Shown: positions 3,154 to 63,903 of the stretch, piece after piece
Position numbering within the stretch: the first letter of the stretch is position 1
Layout of the letters: each line of letters starts with the position of its first letter
Origin: Bradyrhizobium ottawaense
GTDB taxonomy: Bacteria; Pseudomonadota; Alphaproteobacteria; Rhizobiales; Xanthobacteraceae
Reading direction: 5' to 3'
Length of the DNA: 64,000 bases
Assembly (NCBI RefSeq): GCF_900099825.1
Contig: NZ_LT629693.1
Coordinates: forward strand, 4,289,001-4,353,000
Notes under the pieces: generated by a model
Told to the model about the DNA's origin: nothing
The model's input: the letters and a program-made list of their open reading frames with translations, nothing else
Database searches by the model: none
Position numbers and translations under genes: made by a program

Positions 3154-4767
3154 TCACATCTTCATCACGGCTTGCCGATCAATCTTCCCTGTGCCGGTCT
3201 TCGGCAACTCCCCGGTGAACGTGATCTCGCGCGGATATTTGTACGGCAACAGTTTTGCCTTGACGTAATCCTGCAGCCGCTTGGTCGCATCGTTAGCGTC
3301 GAAACCGCCCTGGTTCATCACCACTACCGCCTTCAGCGTCATGCGACGATCCGGCAGTTCGGCGGCGTAGACCGCGCATTCCCTGATGTCAGGATGTTCG
3401 GCGAGGCAGAGTTCCACTTCGAGCGGGTAGACCCATTGGCCGGAGATCTTTATCAGGTCGTCGGCGCGGCCGCGGAAGAAGTGGAAGCCGTCGCTGTCGC
3501 GCACGAAGCGGTCGCCGGTGTAGATCCAGCCGCCGTCGCGGATCGTCTCCGCCGATTTGTCGGGCCGGTTCCAGTACAGCGGCGTGTTGGAGTCGCCGCG
3601 CACCCACAGGATGCCTTCCTCGTTGTCGCCGACCTCGCGGCCGTCCTTGTCGCGGAGCGCTACTTCGAAGCCGGGAACGCGCAGGCCGGCGGCGCCAAGC
3701 TTTTTCTGCTCGGGCCGGTTGGAAAGATAGATGTGCAGCGCTTCGGTCGAGCCGAGCCCCTCGACGATTTCAAGGCCGGTCAGCGTCTTCCAGCCGTTGA
3801 AGACGTCCGCCGACAGCACTTCGGCCGCCGACAGCGCCATTCGCAGCGACGAGAAATCGGCCGTCGATGCGCCGTCGGCCTTTGTCAGCGAGGTGTAGAG
3901 CGTCGGTAATCCGAAGAAGTGCGACGGCCGATATTTTCCGATCGCCTCGAAGATCGCGGCCGGCTTCGGCTGGCCCGGCAGCAGCAGCGTCGCGGCGCCG
4001 ACCGAGAACGGGAAGGTGATGGCATTGCCAAACCCATAGGCGAAAAAGATCTTTGGTACCGAGAAACAGATGTCGTCGGCCGTCAGCTTGAGCACATTGC
4101 GCGCGAAGGCCTGCTCGCTATAGGCCATGTCGTGCTGCAGATGCACGATGCCCTTGGGGCGGCCGGTCGAGCCCGAGGAGTACATCCAGAACGCCATCTC
4201 GTCCCGGCCCGTGTCGGCTTCCGCCAGCTCAGTGGCAAAGCCTTGCAGCCATGGCTCAGCGATCAGCGCCGTGGGCACGGCGTGTTCGCCGGCGGCGCCG
4301 TTGACGACGATCAGAGTTTGCAGGGGCGTGTCCTTGCAGGCCTCGGCGTTGAAACGCGATGTGAATTCGGCCTCGGCGACCGCGACGGTCGCGCCGGCAT
4401 CCGAGAGATAGAACTGCAACAGGTCCGGCGGCGTCAGCGTGTTGATCAGCAGCGGCACGAAGCCCGAACGCACCGCGCCGAAAAAGGCCGCCGGATAGGC
4501 CGGCGTATCGTCGAGGAACATCAGGACGCGATCGCCACGCTTCAGGCCCAGCGACTGAAAACCATGCCCCCATCGCGAGGCACTCGCGCAGAGTTCGGCG
4601 TAGGTAGTGTTGCCGCAGGGGCCGGTCAGCGCCAGCCGGTCGCCGCGGCCTTCAGCCAGGTTATCGAACAGAATGCGGCTGGCATTGTAGCGCTCGAGAA
4701 TTGTAAACCCGATTTCGCGCGCGCCGGGATTTTCCCGCGGGACAGCGTCAGTGATCGCCTGCGTCAT
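3154..4767 (-). CDS. Benzoate-CoA ligase family protein (aromatic acid-CoA ligase)
   Basis: A 537-residue ANL-superfamily adenylate-forming enzyme that would activate an aromatic acid to its CoA thioester with ATP in the cytosol. The phosphate-binding loop MYSSGSTGRPKG is at residues 195-206, the adenine motif GLGSTEALH near residue 340, the YTGDRF motif near 410, and the catalytic lysine in PKTGTGKIDR near residue 528. Length and motifs fit the benzoate/hydroxybenzoate/anthranilate-CoA ligase branch; the exact acid cannot be read. It is the second gene of an operon: its ATG overlaps the monooxygenase stop by 4 bases (ATGA). Candidate substrates from context are salicylate, 3-hydroxybenzoate or anthranilate. 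Confidence 0.88.
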   Translation of the reverse strand: MTQAITDAVPRENPGAREIGFTILERYNASRILFDNLAEGRGDRLALTGPCGNTTYAELCASASRWGHGFQSLGLKRGDRVLMFLDDTPAYPAAFFGAVRSGFVPLLINTLTPPDLLQFYLSDAGATVAVAEAEFTSRFNAEACKDTPLQTLIVVNGAAGEHAVPTALIAEPWLQGFATELAEADTGRDEMAFWMYSSGSTGRPKGIVHLQHDMAYSEQAFARNVLKLTADDICFSVPKIFFAYGFGNAITFPFSVGAATLLLPGQPKPAAIFEAIGKYRPSHFFGLPTLYTSLTKADGASTADFSSLRMALSAAEVLSADVFNGWKTLTGLEIVEGLGSTEALHIYLSNRPEQKKLGAAGLRVPGFEVALRDKDGREVGDNEEGILWVRGDSNTPLYWNRPDKSAETIRDGGWIYTGDRFVRDSDGFHFFRGRADDLIKISGQWVYPLEVELCLAEHPDIRECAVYAAELPDRRMTLKAVVVMNQGGFDANDATKRLQDYVKAKLLPYKYPREITFTGELPKTGTGKIDRQAVMKM

Positions 4768-11852: not shown

Positions 11853-11861
11853 TGGCCACTT

Positions 11862-11953
11862 CGTAGGGTGGGCAAAGCGTAGCGTGCCCACCGTTAGGCG
11901 GCGAGAGGATCCATGGTGGGCACGGCGCGAAGGGCGCCTTTGCCCACCCTACG
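11862..11953. repeat. Nested palindromic intergenic repeat
   Basis: Outer arms CGTAGGGTGGGCAAAG at 11862 and CTTTGCCCACCCTACG ending at 11953 are 16-bp exact reverse complements. Inside lies a second inverted pair, CGTGCCCACC and GGTGGGCACG. It sits between the convergent RND pump and reductase genes and could act as a bidirectional transcription end; no U-tract is present. Confidence 0.8.
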
Positions 11954-11963
11954 AATCCAAGAA

Positions 11964-17528: not shown

Positions 17529-17541
17529 GGCTTCATAACGT

Positions 17542-17664
17542 TCATTCCGGGGCGCATCGAAGACGCGAACCTCGGATGCGCAATTGCGCATCGGGGAATC
17601 TCGAGATTCCCCGGGGTGCAATTGCACCCCTGAGGTCTGGTCCTGCGGGCCATCCCGGAATGAC
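17542..17664. repeat. Cloverleaf-like repeat: three abutting perfect palindromes inside an outer inverted repeat
   Basis: Outer arms begin TCATTCCGGG and end CCCGGAATGA (10-bp exact complement). Inside, three perfect palindromes abut with no spacer: 17575-17592 (18 bp, centre CAATTG), 17593-17612 (20 bp, centre CTCGAG) and 17613-17630 (18 bp, centre CAATTG). The element starts 13 bases after the fpr stop and occupies most of the gap before the patatin gene. Confidence 0.85.
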
Positions 17665-44702: not shown

Positions 44703-44757
44703 ATTGCGGTGACAGTGCACTTAACTCGCGGTGAGTTAAGTGCACTGTCACCGTAAT
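44703..44757. repeat. REP-like hairpin, 25-bp arms with one mismatch
   Basis: Arms at 44703-44727 and 44733-44757 match at 24 of 25 positions, with a 5-base spacer GCGGT. The inner 21 bp pair exactly, including GACAGTGCACTTAACTC. The sequence type resembles REP elements mobilised by REP-associated transposases; no such transposase is in the window. A related fragment, GGGGGACAGTGG, follows at 44774-44785. Confidence 0.85.
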
Positions 44758-45522: not shown

Positions 45523-46414
45523 AGCTTCCTCCAAATCTGAGGCGATTTTGCTGATCCTATCACGCCGAACTAACAATGGGAACTCAATCAGTTTGACGCT
45601 CTCGCTCGCACGCGGCGGTTGTCAAACATAACTCTAATGCGATAGCCGACGAACAAGTCCACTAGGCCACTGCCAATCCGGCCACGAACCGAACGCCGAC
45701 TGCCCGACGGGCAAATCACCCCAGATGTTGGTCAAGCAGCCGTAGAGAAAATAATCCCCTTGGCGATCAGGTGGAATCAAACTTACAAATTCCGCATCCC
45801 GTCCCGCCAGAAGGGCGTTGGCCATCGTCGCAAACGAGGGGCGGGGAGCGGTGGGCGCGGCAGCGCGCGAGACGAACGGGCTGCAGCGTACGGTGAAGTC
45901 GTGTGGGCCTGACGCCCCGGTGCTGGCGTCAAGTTTCGCAGAGCGATCTGCAAATGACGGTGGCAAGAAAGCCGGTCACCGGGGCGAACGCGTATAAGCC
46001 GTAAAGCCATTGCGCAGGGAAGGCCGGGTGTTCTCCGCTGAACCTGTATGCTCGTGTGCATATTTCTTCGCATCTATCGCACGCAAGACCGCGGGTGCAG
46101 CGCGCGCCCGGTCTTCCCTGCGCCCTCTGTATTTCGGGGGCAAGTTTTCGGCAAAACTTCGGGCGCATCGCGCCGCGAGAACGAGAAACTGCATCCATTT
46201 TCGTAGCCCGGATGAGCGAAGCGACATCCGGGGTCACGCCGGCACCGCCCCGGATATCGCTTCGCTCATCCGGGTTCGATGCTTCGCATCGCCCCGAATG
46301 CCGCTGTGGAGGGCCGGGTTGCCATTTCCGCTGTTGAGCAAACCGCGGACTATCACTAGCTTAGCCAAGAGGTCGCCCGGCGGCCCAACGGTGGAAACGC
46401 AGGAGAGACAGCAA
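45523..46414. other. Gene-poor stretch of about 890 bases
   Basis: No ORF here has both a ribosome site and protein-like composition. Several minus-strand frames between 45634 and 46237 are open but overlap in different frames, the picture of a non-coding repeat-derived region. Base composition shifts from AT-richer (45523-45780) to GC-rich. A long hairpin lies at 46205-46276, and AGGAGA before 46415 belongs to the next gene. Confidence 0.5.
46205..46276. repeat. Long hairpin-type intergenic repeat
   Basis: Left arm AGCCCGGATGAGCGAAGCGA (46205-46224) then CATCCGGGG; right arm CCCCGGAT then ATCGCTTCGCTCATCCGGGT ending near 46275. The arms pair over about 28 bases with one bulge. Immediately after it, GATGCTTCGCATC is a small hairpin module related to those in the element at 61316-61397. 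Confidence 0.8.
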
Positions 46415-57364: not shown

Positions 57365-57526
57365 GACGGTCCTCACAAGGCCAGGCGCGCGGGCATGCCG
57401 CAGCGTTGCTGCCTCATTGGTTCGATGAGATTTCGGGACCGTCGTCCCCGGTGTGACGCGCGCTTACGGCGCTGCGATATCAGATACTAGCGCATTTTCC
57501 GGCGGCGGGGATAGCCTGCCGGGCGG

Positions 57527-58477: not shown

Positions 58478-58658
58478 CGGATCACTCTATCTGCCCGAAC
58501 GTAGCATGAAACAAGCGAGGCGGGACAAGCGCGACAATCGCAATTGCTTGATCTCCGACAGTCATTGCGATGCCCCGGCCAAACGACATCATGCCACCGG
58601 CGCCGCTGTTTGCGCAGGTCCAGCGCAACGGCGCGCGCAGCACGCGCATCGAGATCAA

Positions 58659-58763
58659 CTAGAGCGTTTTCGAGCGAAGTGGACGCCGGTTCGCGTAAAG
58701 AAAACGCGTCAAACAAGAGAATAGAGCCCGGTTCTGATTCAATCAGAACCGATAAGGCTCTAG
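58659..58763. repeat. CGTTTTC/GAAAACG dispersed repeat, copy 3, nested with a second hairpin
   Basis: Outer ends CTAGAGC (58659-58665) and GCTCTAG (58757-58763) are exact complements. Inside are GCGTTTTC ... GAAAACGC as in the other two copies, and a perfect palindrome at 58730-58750 (GGTTCTGATT, C, AATCAGAACC). It lies in the 614-base gap between mepA and the GGDEF-EAL gene. The rest of that gap (58478-58658 and 58764-59091) shows no supported gene. Confidence 0.85.
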
Positions 58764-59091: not shown

Positions 59092-61308
59092 ATGCCGAAC
59101 AAGAAGTCAAAAACAGCCAAGAAGCCGAAACAGCCGGCGCGTGCCCGCCTGTTCGGCCGGCCGGCCAAACCCGGCCCGCAACGCTCCGGCAGCCGCCGCG
59201 TTCGCGCCGAGACCGTTGAGATCGCGCGCAAACGCGTCGAGGTCGAGGCCGCGATGGCGGATGCGCGCAAGTCGGACGAGAGGTTGCGCGAGGCGATCGA
59301 CATCCTGCCGCAGGGCGTCGTGTTTCTCGACGCCGAAGGCCGCTACATTCTCTGGAACAAGAAATATGCGGAGATCTACAACCGCAGCTCGGATCTGTTC
59401 GAGCGGGGCGCGCGGCTGGAAGACACCATTCGCATCGGCGTAGAGCGGGGCGATTATCCCGAAGCGGTCGGCCGCGAGGAGCAATGGATCGCCGACCGGC
59501 TCAGCAAGCTCTACCAGCCTGGCGAGCGGCATGAGCAGACGCTGGCCGATGGCCGCGTCATCCTGATCGACGAGCGGCTGACCGAGGACGGTGGCGTCAT
59601 CGGCCTGCGCGTCGATATCACCGAACTGAAGCAGCGCGAGGCTTCGTTCCGGCTGCTGTTCGACAGCAACCCGGTTCCGATGATCGTATGCGCCCTCGAC
59701 GGCGAACGGATTCTCGGCATCAACGACGCCGCGATCGAGCATTATGGCTACAGCCGCGGCGAGTTCGAAAAGCTGACGATCCGCAATCTGCAGGCCTTCG
59801 ATCCCGAACTGCCATGGAGCGGCGACCGTTCCAGCGACGAGCAGAACGCCCGAACCTGGAAGCATGTCAGGGCCGACGGCGCATTGATCGACCTGGCGAT
59901 CTATTCGCGCCAGCTCGTCTACGGCGACAGACCGGCCGTCCTGCTGGCGCTGATGGACATCACCGAGCGCAAGCGCGCCGAGGCGCGGCTGGCCTTCATG
60001 GCCCAGCATGACGGATTGACCGGCCTGCCGAACCGCACCCTGCTGCGGCAGCAGATGGACGACATCCTGCTGCACACGCGGCGCAGCGCCGAGAAAGTCG
60101 CGGTGCTGGTGCTCGGCCTCGACAATTTCAAGGCGGTCAACGATACGCTCGGCCACGGCGTCGGCGACAAACTGCTGCGTGGCGTCGCCAAACGATTGAA
60201 GTCGACGCTGCGCGAGGAAGATACGGTGGCCCGGCTCAACTCCGACGAATTCGCGATCGTCCAGAGCGGTGTGACACGTCCCGAGGACGCGGTGCTGCTC
60301 GCGAAGCGGCTGCTGGAGGCGATCGGCGACCCCTATCTGCTGGACGGCCATTCCGTCGTGATCGGCGCCAGCATCGGCATTGCGGTGTCGCCCGGCGACG
60401 GTGACGAGTCCGACAAGCTGCTGAAAAACGCCGACATGGCCTTGTCGCGCGCCAAGAACGATTCGCGCGGCACGTTCAGCTTCTTCGAAGCCGAGATGGA
60501 CGCCCGCGCCCAGACCCGGCGCAAGATCGAGACCGACCTGCGCGAAGCGATCCACAACGATGTGCTGCGGCCGTACTACCAGCCGCTGATCGATCTTTCG
60601 ACCGGACGCATCACCGGCTGCGAGGCGCTGGTGCGCTGGCGGCATGCCGAGCGCGGCATGATTTCGCCCGGCGAGTTCATTCCGGTGGCCGAAGAGACCG
60701 GCCTGATCAACGCGGTCGGCGGCCTGATGCTGCGCCGCGCCTGCATGGATGCGGCACAATGGCCTGACGACGTCCGCGTCGCGGTCAACCTGTCGCCGCT
60801 GCAGTTCCGCGTCGGCAATCTGTTGTCGGTGGTGATGGATACGCTGAAGCAATCCGGCCTGCCGCCAACGCGGCTGGAACTGGAGATCACCGAAACGCTG
60901 CTGCTGGAAAAGAGCGATCAGGTGCTGGCGACGCTGCACGCGTTGCGCTCGCTCGGCGTCCGCATTTCGATGGACGATTTCGGCACCGGCTATTCCAGCC
61001 TGAGCTATCTGCGCAGCTTTCCGTTCGACAAGATCAAGATCGACCAGTCGTTCGTCCGCGATCTCGCCGCCAATCCGGATGCCCAGGCGATCGTTCGCTC
61101 GATCATCAGTCTCGGCAAGGGCCTCGGGGTCACGATCACGGCCGAAGGCGTCGAGACCGAAGCCGAACTGAGCTGCCTGCGCAACGAAGGCTGCCACGAG
61201 GGGCAGGGTTTTCTGTTCAGCCGCGCACGGCCCAATGTCGAGATCGTCAGCCTGTTGCAGGCGCAGCGCGGCGAGAGGCCGGCGGCGGGTGCGGCGCTGG
61301 TGGCGTGA
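59092..61308 (+). CDS. PAS-PAS-GGDEF-EAL protein, probable c-di-GMP phosphodiesterase
   Basis: A 738-residue signalling protein. The basic N terminus (about residues 1-40, KKSKTAKKPKQPARARLFGR) is followed by two PAS domains (about 65-170 and 185-300), a GGDEF domain (about 300-460) and an EAL domain (about 485-725). The GGDEF active site reads LNSDEF, not GGDEF, so cyclase activity is probably lost. The EAL site looks intact: CEALVRW, NLSPLQF, LEITETLLL, DDFGTGYSSL, KIDQSF and AEGVET. It should therefore hydrolyse c-di-GMP, with PAS and GGDEF acting as sensors. The ATG at 59092 has GGGGCGGAG upstream; the frame stays open upstream but without a ribosome site. Confidence 0.88.
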   Translation: MPNKKSKTAKKPKQPARARLFGRPAKPGPQRSGSRRVRAETVEIARKRVEVEAAMADARKSDERLREAIDILPQGVVFLDAEGRYILWNKKYAEIYNRSSDLFERGARLEDTIRIGVERGDYPEAVGREEQWIADRLSKLYQPGERHEQTLADGRVILIDERLTEDGGVIGLRVDITELKQREASFRLLFDSNPVPMIVCALDGERILGINDAAIEHYGYSRGEFEKLTIRNLQAFDPELPWSGDRSSDEQNARTWKHVRADGALIDLAIYSRQLVYGDRPAVLLALMDITERKRAEARLAFMAQHDGLTGLPNRTLLRQQMDDILLHTRRSAEKVAVLVLGLDNFKAVNDTLGHGVGDKLLRGVAKRLKSTLREEDTVARLNSDEFAIVQSGVTRPEDAVLLAKRLLEAIGDPYLLDGHSVVIGASIGIAVSPGDGDESDKLLKNADMALSRAKNDSRGTFSFFEAEMDARAQTRRKIETDLREAIHNDVLRPYYQPLIDLSTGRITGCEALVRWRHAERGMISPGEFIPVAEETGLINAVGGLMLRRACMDAAQWPDDVRVAVNLSPLQFRVGNLLSVVMDTLKQSGLPPTRLELEITETLLLEKSDQVLATLHALRSLGVRISMDDFGTGYSSLSYLRSFPFDKIKIDQSFVRDLAANPDAQAIVRSIISLGKGLGVTITAEGVETEAELSCLRNEGCHEGQGFLFSRARPNVEIVSLLQAQRGERPAAGAALVA

Positions 61309-61315
61309 GGTAGAC

Positions 61316-61397
61316 TGTCATTCCGGGGCGATGCGAAGCATCGAACCCGGAATCTCGAGATTCCGGGTTCGCATCTTCGATGCGCCCCGGAATGACA
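61316..61397. repeat. Cloverleaf-like repeat: 14-bp outer stem and three abutting inner hairpins
   Basis: Outer arms TGTCATTCCGGGGC (61316-61329) and GCCCCGGAATGACA (61384-61397) are exact 14-bp complements. The whole interior is three abutting palindromes: 61330-61342 (GATGC, GAA, GCATC), 61343-61370 (28 bp, perfect, centre CTCGAG) and 61371-61383 (GCATC, TTC, GATGC). All 82 bases belong to a stem or a 3-base loop. It begins 7 bases after the stop of the GGDEF-EAL gene and sits between convergent genes. Confidence 0.9.
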
Positions 61398-61402
61398 TTT
61401 CA

Positions 61403-61855
61403 TTATCGCTTCCGCTTCCCCAAATGATACGTCAGCGCCAGCGCTACGCAGTGGCGCAATTCGGCTTCGGGAAGCCTGTCCCCGGCATCGAGCAGGATGG
61501 CGCGGTTGCCGCTGTACCTCAGTTCCGGATAGAGCTCGCGAAAGGTCTCGACCAGATTGGTCTGGCAATGGAAATAGACCGCGACCTGGCCGGCCTCGGC
61601 CTTCACCTGGTCGATCCGGATCGTGCTGCCGCTCCTGCTTTCGGGCGTGAGATAGCTCGGCTGCCCCCATTTCAGGATTTCTTCCAGCGCGCCCACGCCC
61701 TCGGTCGCCTTCGCCGTGGCGAGGATCAGCCGCCGCAGCGCCAGCAATCTTGCTTTGACCGGCCTCGGATAGGCGTCGAACACCCCGTCCACCGCGGGAT
61801 CTGAATGTCCGGTGCGCCTGGTAGCGACGGCCTTTTTCCTGGTCGACGTTTTCAT
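61403..61855 (-). CDS. DUF1801-domain protein (YdhG-like)
   Basis: A 150-residue protein. The N-terminal tail is basic (MKTSTRKKAVATRRTGHSDP), then the DUF1801 core: VFDAYPRPVKARLLALRRLI, EEILKWGQPSYLTPESRSGS, IRIDQVKAEAGQVAVYFHCQ and FRELYPELRYSGNRAILLDA. The conserved KWGQPSY motif is complete. Proteins of this family adopt a YdhG-like fold; the biochemical role is unknown. The ATG at 61855 is chosen; a start at 61873 is possible. Convergent with the GGDEF-EAL gene, with a cloverleaf repeat between them. Confidence 0.83.
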   Translation of the reverse strand: MKTSTRKKAVATRRTGHSDPAVDGVFDAYPRPVKARLLALRRLILATAKATEGVGALEEILKWGQPSYLTPESRSGSTIRIDQVKAEAGQVAVYFHCQTNLVETFRELYPELRYSGNRAILLDAGDRLPEAELRHCVALALTYHLGKRKR

Positions 61856-61935
61856 CCCAGCCCGTCCGCGCATTTCCTTACGGCGGAAAGTCTAGGATAT
61901 TCGACGCACAATCGGAAGCGGGCCGCGACCGTGAC

Positions 61936-63903
61936 CTAGGCGGCGTCGCGCAGGCCGGCGAGGAAGGTATCGACGCTTTCGTGCAGCGCATCGGCCTGAC
62001 GGCCGAGCTGGCCAGTGGCGGCCAGCACGTTGTCGGCGAGCGCGCGCGAGCGGTCGGCGGACTGGCTTGCGCCGGTCACGTTGACCGAGACCTCGCTGGT
62101 GCCGGTGGCCGCCTGCTGGACGCTGCGCGCAATCTCCCGGGTCGCCGAATCCTGCTGCTCGACGGCGGCGGCGATCGTGGTGGCGATGCCGCTGATCTCG
62201 CGGATGGTGTCGCTGATGCCGCCGATCGCGGTTACACACTCGCCGGTCGCGGACTGGATGGCGGCGACCTGCGCGGCGATTTCCTCGGTCGCCTTCGCGG
62301 TCTGGCTGGCAAGCTCCTTGACCTCGGAGGCGACGACGGCAAAGCCCCTGCCGGCATCGCCGGCGCGTGCGGCCTCGATGGTGGCGTTGAGCGCCAACAG
62401 GTTGGTCTGGCTCGCGATCGCGCCGATCAGGCGCAGTACGTCGCCGATCTTTTCGGCAGCGGTAGCGAGGCTGCCGACCATTTCGGTGGTCTTCCCGGCC
62501 TTGACCACGGCGTTGTCGGCGACCTGGCTTGAATGGGTGACCTGGCGGCCGATCTCGGTGACGGAGGAGGCCAGTTCCTCGGTGGCGGCAGCAACCGTGC
62601 TGACGCTGGCGGAGGCCTCTTCGGACGCCGCCGCCGCGGCGGCGGCCTGTTCCGACGTGCCGTTGACGCTGGCGGTGATTTCGCCGGCCACGCGCTGCAT
62701 GTCCGACGTCGCTTTGGCGACGGTCGCGACGACGCTCTTGACGTCGGCCTCGAAGCGATCGGCCATCTGCCGCTGCAGGGTTCTCTTTTCGAGTTCGGTC
62801 TGCTGCTTGGAGGCTTCCTGCGCCTCGCGCATGCCGCGCGCCTCGATCATGCTGCGGCGGAACACGTCGACCGCAGCCGCCATGGTGCCGAGTTCGTCGC
62901 GGCGTTCGCTGCCGGGGATCGTGACGTCGATTTCACCGCTCGAGAGCCGGTTCATGACGGCGGTGATGGCGGCGAGCGGCCGTGACAGGCCGCGGCCGAG
63001 CAGGAACGCGAGCACGATGGCAACCGCCAGGATGGCAACGGTGCCGAGAATCAGGTTGCGTTGTGACGTCGCGGCCGCGGCGTCGTACTCGGTCGTATCC
63101 TTGATGATCTCGATGACGGCGACCGGGTGACCGGCATAATCCCTGATCTGCCCGAGAAAGACGGCGGCGGGATGACCGTCGAGCGTCGCATCGCGGCGCA
63201 ACGCTCCGCCATCCATCACGCCCTTGAGTTCGTCCTGGGTGGCAATCGCGGTCTCGCCAAAAGTCGAGGACAGCTTTTTGAACACTTTGCCGTCGAACGA
63301 ATGCACCGCAAGGTCGATGCCGAAGCGCCTTTTGGCGCGATCGACGAACTCCTTGCCGAAGGCTGCTCCGACATCGACGTTCGCCAGACTTTTGCCGTCG
63401 CGAATGATGGGAGTCATGCCGAAAATGCCGAGCGCTTCTCTCCCGGGCTCGACGCCGACGATCGGCTTGCCTGTCTTGATCGCCTCGACAACCGTGCTCC
63501 GGCGGCCGGATACATCGTCGCCGAAAATCTTGGGTTCGTGAACACGATAAAACGAAGTCGCGGGAGGCACCTGGAAGGTGATCAGCGGGATGCCTTGCGC
63601 CTTCAATGCCTTGTTGGCATCGCCGAGCAGTGCCGCCAGTTCGTCGCGATTACCCCTGATGATGGCTTCGCTGACCGGCGGCAGGGCTGCGACCACCGAA
63701 CTCACCGCCAGCGCGGCACGCCCCTCATAGTCGACGGCGGCTATCACACTGTCATATTGCAGCTTGAGTTGCTGATCGAGTGCGAGCCGCGTCAAGGCGC
63801 GCTGCTGCAGGATCGAAAAGGTTCCGAGGATTCCGCAGGCGAGGGCGACGGTCAGCGAAATGGCGAGGATCAGGCGGGCCGCGATCGATCGAATTTTGAA
63901 CAT
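61936..63903 (-). CDS. Methyl-accepting chemotaxis protein with Cache-type sensor
   Basis: A 655-residue chemoreceptor. TM1 (about residues 10-30) and TM2 (about 283-305) bracket a periplasmic Cache-like sensing domain with [20 protein letters not shown] and [25 protein letters not shown] domain follows ([20 protein letters not shown]), then the coiled-coil signalling domain, with the conserved hairpin tip [20 protein letters not shown] and [20 protein letters not shown], which binds CheA and CheW. No C-terminal CheR-docking pentapeptide is visible (ends FLAGLRDAA). The ligand is unknown. The start at 63903 is followed by a positively charged segment; the 97 bases upstream show no firm promoter. 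Confidence 0.93.

Follow-up and report, generated by a model that had tools for sequence, protein, structure and literature searches.

An 82-bp element between convergent genes of Bradyrhizobium ottawaense is probably a head-to-head dimer of CGTC-tagged, REP-type hairpin units

The 82-bp element at positions 61316-61397 of the window (the whole 64,000-nucleotide stretch of Bradyrhizobium ottawaense DNA that was analysed) is probably a head-to-head dimer of two CGTC-tagged, REP-type units. It most likely behaves as a rapidly turning-over single-strand-DNA repeat that is non-autonomous, and is best seen as a variant of the published CGTC-tagged REP class in which the loop is filled by a further hairpin. 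The units are self-contained hairpins whose stems are kept paired through sequence change, and dimers of the B. ottawaense genome join unlike kinds of unit more often than random pairing would. Placed copies lie at gene 3′ ends, and the same slots hold different inner hairpins in two species.

Direct reading of the element gives TGTCATTCCGGGGC, GATGC-GAA-GCATC, GAACCCGGAATCTCGAGATTCCGGGTTC, GCATC-TTC-GATGC and GCCCCGGAATGACA, i.e., 14+13+28+13+14 bases. Every base lies in a stem or a 3-base loop, and the middle 28 bases form a perfect palindrome centred on CTCGAG, exactly as in the original prediction. The placement between convergent ORFs claimed there was also borne out: the element begins 7 bases (61309-61315) after the TGA at 61306-61308 and ends 5 bases short of 61403, where the opposing ORF has its stop, so that it fills the gap almost wholly. 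The DNA fold of the whole element has z = -11.2, and none of 200 shuffled sequences was equally stable; the layout is far from chance. The left and right units taken alone each fold at -14.6 kcal/mol (z -5.2 and -5.4, respectively). A known RNA family was rejected, since a search of positions 60000-62500 with 4227 Rfam models (E up to 1) returned no match. The 156-aa gene at 61403-61873 is missing from this place in the relative G177, though the repeat and the flanking genes are present. Two frames that cross the element, 61235-61804 (+) and 61005-61670 (-), yield repeat-derived peptides (CHSGAMRSIEPGISRFRVR...), and their annotation as genes would be spurious. Coordinates are collected in Table 1.

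Table 1. Features of the element, its neighbours and a second family member in the window
Feature	Position	Strand	Description
Whole element	61316..61397	.	two inverted 41-bp REP-like units, head to head, spacer 0
Left unit	61316..61356	+	GC..GAA type: TGTC tag, ATTCCGGG, C-GATGC-GAA-GCATC-G, CCCGGAAT, CTC tail
Right unit	61357..61397	-	GC..GAA type, read on -: TGTC, ATTCCGGG, C-GCATC-GAA-GATGC-G, CCCGGAAT, CTC
Tag, left unit	61316..61319	+	TGTC
Tag, right unit	61394..61397	-	TGTC
Left inner hairpin	61330..61342	+	GATGC-GAA-GCATC, GCGAAGC inside
Right inner hairpin	61371..61383	-	GCATC-GAA-GATGC on -
28-bp palindrome	61343..61370	.	both 3′ arms and tails
Upstream convergent ORF	59092..61308	+	start from a simple in-house gene caller; presumably GGDEF/EAL-like, from its translation
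Downstream convergent ORF	61403..61873	-	156 aa; presumably DUF1801-like
Second family member	17541..17663	.	extra palindromic modules at centre

A genome-wide search for the layout, which the original prediction had proposed, retrieved 66 matches to the pattern TCATTCCGG-N50..80-CCGGAATGA in the single-contig 8.34-Mb genome; the pattern read backwards, used as a control, retrieved none. The same pattern is present in all 35 other sampled genomes of the genus, in 1 to 86 copies each, and in none of 24 genomes of other families within the order. Within the same family, 103 of 149 genomes, representing 36 of 47 genera, have matches to a looser single-unit pattern. In B. ottawaense itself the 66 dimers stand against 126 strict matches to the unit, the two patterns being unequal in strictness. 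The tags at the 118 ends of 59 elements of this genome are CGTC in 71 cases and TGTC in 32 (103/118 together). The centre of the composite element at 17541-17663 holds the palindromes GATGCGCAATTGCGCATC and GGGGTGCAATTGCACCCC, a second palindromic module seated there; several G177 dimers have the same palindromes nested within them. In B. retamae (L089, ~3394-3450) the same convergent slot as that of the 82-bp element is occupied by one unit flanked on either side by outer arms, and so is a B. ottawaense slot, L207:8106-8196; it may be that dimers are reduced to monomers.

What is kept across copies is each 41-base half, made of a (C/T)GTC tag, the stem arm ATTCCGGG, a loop-filling hairpin, CCCGGAAT and CTC; the second half, read as its reverse complement, closely resembles the first, and the two lie head to head. 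One junction base follows ATTCCGGG and two precede CCCGGAAT, with the inner hairpin, in most cases closed by a C-G or T-A pair at its outer end, standing in between. As a folded strand, the unit consists of the tag, an 8-bp stem enclosing an asymmetric internal loop and a 6-bp inner hairpin whose loop reads GNA or GNNA, and a 3′ tail that is CTC or TTC in nearly all units among the matches listed. Altogether 96 elements were collected (59 from B. ottawaense, 22 from G015, 13 from G002 and one each from G022 and G008). Ninety-two of them are spacerless; 90 were parsed, and two with one rearranged half were dropped. In the parsed dimers, the variable junction pair is Watson-Crick in 179/180 cells inside a half and in 61/180 between halves, while arm position 8 is Watson-Crick in 178/180 and 162/180 cells, respectively. 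Core stems are paired in 315 of 337 cells (160 +/- 9 when shuffled).

Three models were compared by covariation on 29 equal-length copies, hand-picked from B. ottawaense, G015, G002, G022, G008 and G177; a thirtieth copy, L154, was excluded because its inclusion shifted the alignment. With two separate hairpins, 98.5% of positions are paired and covariation is 0.315 (0.095 when shuffled). The cloverleaf reaches 94.4% and 0.226 (shuffled 0.111), and a single long hairpin 84.7% and 0.058, the latter value lying below all 500 shuffles. Eight of the ten pairs credited to the cloverleaf as changed on both sides sit in the inner hairpins, which are common to the cloverleaf and the two-hairpin model, and among pairs that join the halves such changes occur at 0/12 in the outer arm and 2/14 in the centre. 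The junction pairs between halves, with G-T allowed, are broken in 10 or 11 of the 29 aligned copies. The first A-T stem pair fails in 8 of the 58 units of this set. The cloverleaf is therefore rejected as the conserved structure by covariation, its outer helix having no compensatory pairs, as is one 82-nt hairpin, which pairs less often than shuffles do. Thus, the cloverleaf seen by the original prediction as the design of the element did not hold: compensatory changes fall inside the halves and none in the outer arms. A coincidence of repeat history, which was also contemplated there should the inner hairpins drift without compensation, does not account for the layout, since these hairpins vary greatly yet remain paired. 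The halves are interchangeable modules, and the four-way layout is not the constrained object.

The majority of halves belong to a GC..GAA or an AT..AGA type. Among 54 parsed B. ottawaense dimers, 37 are mixed, 16 are GC/GC (the minority kind to which the window copy belongs), one joins AT to a variant and none is AT/AT, where 6.6 would be expected. Halves with the same stem were found once in 54 (10.7 expected; none of 5000 shuffles was so low) and identical halves also once (4.8 expected, P 0.03). When each of the 46 combinations was counted once, P was 0.0006 for same-stem halves and 0.002 for AT/AT; identical halves, at 1 against 1.5 expected (P 0.55), were then not rarer. The samples from G002 (13) and G015 (21) go in the same direction, neither being significant alone, and two AT/AT dimers are found among the listed matches of G177. 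In eight genomes of four other genera, 36 adjacent inverted pairs, inspected by eye among the matches listed, contain 28 AT units and no AT/AT combination (P 1e-4). That AT..AGA halves are almost never paired with one another is new. Either like halves are lost, long perfect palindromes being unstable, or the two types are distinct ends; loss through such instability is what Di Nocera et al. suggest for heterodimers in the part of their paper relied on here (PMC3733652).

The loops of the inner hairpins follow a rule. When a 3′ arm was required, 63 of 83 distinct inner hairpins had GNA or GNNA loops, 61 of these 63 being closed by C-G, and only 2 of the 83 had the reverse-strand form TN(N)C. 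In 482 other short perfect hairpins of the window, counted on both strands as a control, the two forms were equally frequent (33 GN(N)A and 33 TN(N)C). A looser count that dispensed with the 3′ arm gave 66 of 95 (45 GNA and 21 GNNA). Just 8 of the 21 GNNA loops are GNRA, so the tetraloop rule of RNA does not account for them. Extraordinarily stable DNA mini-hairpins, as described in the excerpted text of PMC4686876, carry GNA or GNNA loops on stems of two or more G-C pairs, GCGAAGC and CGCGAAGCG being examples given there; both sequences occur literally as or in the inner hairpins studied here, in a natural repeat family rather than in the synthetic oligonucleotides of that source. The open-licence literature, a scope that leaves out most subscription journals, yielded no natural repeat family following this rule. 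Since the loop rule is that of DNA and not of RNA, the constraint indicates a single-stranded DNA form, made by the strand that has the tag at its 5′ end. Both the loop rule and the pairing bias could in part be inherited from a few founders, the unit sequences being related and not independent.

Placement was analysed with gene gaps taken from a simple in-house gene caller. Fifty-seven placed B. ottawaense copies (5 copies at locus edges and 2 inside predicted genes being left aside) lie in 28 convergent, 29 co-directional and no divergent gaps; the background in 0.46 Mb of larger stretches of the same genome is 69 convergent, 259 co-directional and 58 divergent gaps. Copies in convergent slots lie a median of 12.5 bases from the stop. 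The filling of orthologous slots was judged by a palindrome score, which counts any strong palindrome. By this measure, both species have a palindrome at 22 of 42 convergent slots, neither has one at 14, and one of the two has it at 6 (Fisher P 2.7e-6). The corresponding figures are 23, 139 and 21 for 183 co-directional slots and 1, 31 and 4 for 36 divergent ones. The slot of the window element was surveyed with short tag patterns in 33 relatives that have both neighbours. It measures 45 bases or less in 7 of them; the remaining 26 carry tags of at least five other palindromic families or, in one case, a single unit of the window family, and four of the gaps exceed 300 bases. A hairpin is therefore not obligatory there.

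Turnover was followed in G177, the closest relative compared, which is a single contig with 97 layout matches and is 93% identical over one 1.4-kb test stretch. About 0.7 Mb of it was compared, chosen partly around G177 dimers, which favours shared occupancy. Of the 66 B. ottawaense elements, 22 have a located counterpart in G177 (20 dimers, 1 truncated dimer and 1 cleanly empty site), and the 44 without one probably reflect the partial, ~0.7-Mb coverage. In the opposite direction, 36 of 62 matches were located in B. ottawaense stretches chosen partly around its own dimers; these 36 slots hold 21 dimers, 1 single unit and, as judged by eye, 12 repeats of another palindromic family, while one is repeat-free and one is not a real element.

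Twenty-one unique pairs of orthologous dimers resulted. The two species share the stem at 8 of 42 unit positions, where random pairing would give 8.7, and stem and loop together at 5 of 42 (3.1 by random pairing, P 0.17); both halves are alike in a single pair. There may be a weak memory of the inner hairpin at orthologous positions. At the window site, G177 has AT-GCGC/GC-GATGC where the window has GC-GATGC/GC-GCATC, with the left flank almost unchanged. Flank homology reaches the edge of the element in 12 of 42 cases; in 2 of these 12 the stem of the neighbouring hairpin is shared (6 of 30 for other flanks); since homology extends up to the edge and the adjacent stem nevertheless differs, replacement often takes place in situ. 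That inner hairpins differ between two related species at the same sites is new and unexpected. In the open-licence literature (most subscription journals being outside that scope), no report was found of inner-hairpin exchange at orthologous slots or of the GNA/GNNA rule in a REP family, nor any relevant paper on the motif itself. At the G177 counterparts of L210:2264-2390 and L207:14442-14585, an older repeat survives as a stump next to the newer one, suggesting that existing repeats were targets of insertion, combined with deletion. When the whole window was compared with G177, two elements of the family entered the comparison; repeats near 57500, 58552 and 20445 differ in presence or absence between the two, so shared occupancy is not general to repeats. 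The AGCGTTTTCGAGCGAAGTGG... repeat family, seen at 58552-58754 and at the G177 counterpart of 57500, is present in one species and absent from the other in each direction.

The sole clean empty site has CCACCGTC-ATTCC... in B. ottawaense and CCATCGTC-ACATC in G177. It fits insertion just 3′ of CGTC; CGTCA is also found at the far junction, so that a 5-base direct repeat fits this one site as well. Thirty-one Y1 transposase loci were scanned, two from B. ottawaense and 29 among the hits from 60 genomes of the genus. No ATTCCGG unit lies within 700 bases of any of them, L227 and L231 ending at contig ends. GTAG units stand on both sides of 14 loci, the GGTGACAGTGCACT repeat (TIR) on at least one side of 9, and other CGTC-type tags on one side of L238, L246 and L227. 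The two Y1 transposases of B. ottawaense were rejected as movers, one being bounded by GTAG units and the other by the GGTGACAGTGCACT repeat. An ATTCCGG dimer lies ~1.2 kb from the GGTGACAGTGCACT-bounded Y1 gene with gene-like sequence in between, and this is taken as chance. The Y1 gene L046/L122 (G000:C1:4694704-4695027) has GTAGGGTGGGC units on both sides and is a REPtron, an arrangement that recurs in relatives. A solo inverted repeat, ATTGCGGTGACAGTGCACTTAACTC, at 44703-44757 of the window is near-identical to the repeat that brackets the B. ottawaense Y1 gene L045; a repeat like it adjoins several Y1 genes in relatives, and the window copy is likely a miniature element of the L045 transposase.

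In the mechanism we propose, the working form would be folded single-stranded DNA, each strand being recognised separately from its 5′ tag onwards, in the way RAYT or IS200/IS605 enzymes treat their hairpins. The dimer would be a non-autonomous mobile repeat, moved or copied by an enzyme encoded elsewhere; as none of the 31 Y1 loci is flanked by units, this IS200-like reading comes without its enzyme. Slots might be overwritten by other copies or by other palindromic families through insertion beside or into an old copy and deletion or, alternatively, through conversion between copies. Restriction to 3′ ends would reflect survival where insertion is least harmful, with possible side effects on transcript ends. 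A more specific version, which is tentative and which we would not expect to hold in full, is that each dimer is a minimal mobile element of single-stranded DNA whose two ends, GC..GAA and AT..AGA, are distinct, a combination seen again in further genera of the family. Their enzyme would read d(C-GN(N)A-G) mini-hairpins by the CGTC tag and overwrite palindromes already present, and 3′-end slots would remain filled, although by the time genomes had diverged by a few percent their contents would have been reshuffled.

Placement might instead reflect host selection for a bidirectional terminator or 3′-end stabiliser of convergent genes, which we consider doubtful. In its favour are the gaps of 7 and 5 bases between the element and the two stops, the 28 convergent and 0 divergent locations among 57 placed copies, the short median distance to the stop in convergent slots, and the agreement between species in the occupancy of these slots (22/14/6 of 42). 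A search for an intrinsic terminator (GC-rich hairpin plus T-run) nonetheless found no match at the 82-base element, so that this candidate was rejected, and the slot measures 45 bases or less in 7 of 33 relatives. At L212:8742-8886 a separate hairpin followed by TTT (TTTTTT in G177), seen by eye, precedes the repeat. Co-directional slots agree less well (23 both, 21 one and 139 neither of 183), avoidance of promoters explains the placement without any benefit to the host, and the loop rule is DNA's and not RNA's. Still less probable is a functional four-way RNA or cruciform in which the outer arms and the central palindrome are selected as such, although folding offers it some support. All bases of the window copy pair or loop in this form, and on the 82-nt strand of a typical heterodimer it is the best fold (four-way -33.5, two hairpins -28.4), so pairing between units is physically available, which goes against our main explanation. 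The 9 of 12 outer pairs that are invariant in 29 copies seem to favour it too, but invariant arms are needed equally by two hairpins. In the window copy, the lowest-energy single strand is an imperfect long hairpin (-38.5 kcal/mol) rather than the cloverleaf (-34.1) or two separate hairpins (-28.8), because the side hairpins are so alike. Both-sides changes (0/12 outer, 2/14 central), the two outer pairs broken in 10 of 29 copies, and the mixing of halves with a bias against like stems all tell against selection on the four-way form.

It is unlikely that the stems are kept perfect by mutation alone, with template switching repairing and flipping arms and no selection on structure. Template switching can create and keep hairpins and produce multi-base compensatory changes, according to the portion of PMC8794818 drawn upon here, and it may still add to the perfection of the stems. 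The loops, however, keep their strand polarity (GN(N)A in 63 and TN(N)C in 2 of 83), which loop inversion would not do, and the exchange of whole hairpins or repeat families between species is left unexplained. We give as little credence as to the four-way form to a miniature inverted-repeat element of a cut-and-paste (DDE) insertion sequence with the terminal repeat TGTCATTCCGGGG. The terminal inverted repeats and the 5-base direct repeat CGTCA that brackets the insert at the clean empty site agree with such an element; this direct repeat, however, is seen at one site only, and the element has at its ends entire hairpin units whose inner hairpins show compensation, a feature not usual for terminal repeats.

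The original prediction had taken the architecture to be undescribed. In kind it is not: head-to-head dimers of CGTC-tagged REPs were reported from Bradyrhizobium in 2013. The variant with a hairpin-filled loop is absent from the literature searched, and the element is thus ordinary in its class and unusual in detail. As characterised in the sections of Di Nocera et al. 2013 used here (PMC3733652), CGTC-tagged REPs have a terminal CGTC, often TGTC or CCTC, an 8-9 bp stem whose first two pairs are A-T and T-A, a loop of 4-5 bases (Bradyrhizobium CGTC-1, with loops varying in length and composition, being excepted) and a 3′ tail that fits CCA in most but not all. They occur in many alpha-proteobacteria, mainly as head-to-head dimers and without associated transposase genes. 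The present family resembles CGTC-1 as these sections portray it (PMC3733652) in its CGTC/TGTC tag, 8-bp stem starting AT (ATTCCGGG/CCCGGAAT), short 3′ tail, head-to-head dimers, intergenic location mostly between convergent or co-directional genes, and absence of an attached transposase gene in the scan of Y1 loci. It departs from the class there described (PMC3733652) in having an 18-base insert with its own hairpin in place of the 4-5-base loop, a CTC and not a CCA tail, and no spacer. CGTC-1 dimers are mainly homodimers, whereas unlike halves prevail here; CGTC-1 was compared by its text description (PMC3733652), not by its consensus sequence.

With REPINs mobilised by RAYTs, in the partial account taken from Bertels and Rainey 2011 (PMC3116915), the family shares two inverted REPs in a hairpin-capable doublet that is extragenic and is repeated as a doublet. 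Unlike them, it has no GTAG tag, no unit flanking any of the 31 Y1 loci, a variable inner hairpin in each half and no spacer in 92 of 96 collected copies (PMC3116915). Any likeness to IS200/IS605 ends would lie in a strand-specific hairpin by a short tag, a possible target, and in two unlike ends; unlike IS200/IS605, the element has candidate mobility only, with no known enzyme and one compatible empty site.

How CGTC REPs spread was an unsettled question in 2013, given that they lack an accompanying transposase, and the count of 0/31 flanked Y1 loci agrees with that statement, as it reads in the text consulted (PMC3733652). The family now offers handles on this spread: a candidate recognition motif, two end types and a target tag, and two single-contig genomes with unlike inner hairpins at the majority of the 21 compared sites. 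It also carries a warning, that compensatory changes in such repeats can come from the swapping of ready-made hairpins and not from paired point mutations. Two other palindromic repeats of the window, at 11860-11955 and 46207-46274 and of the GTAGGGTGGGC and CCCGGATGAGCG types, look to be of the GTAG class.
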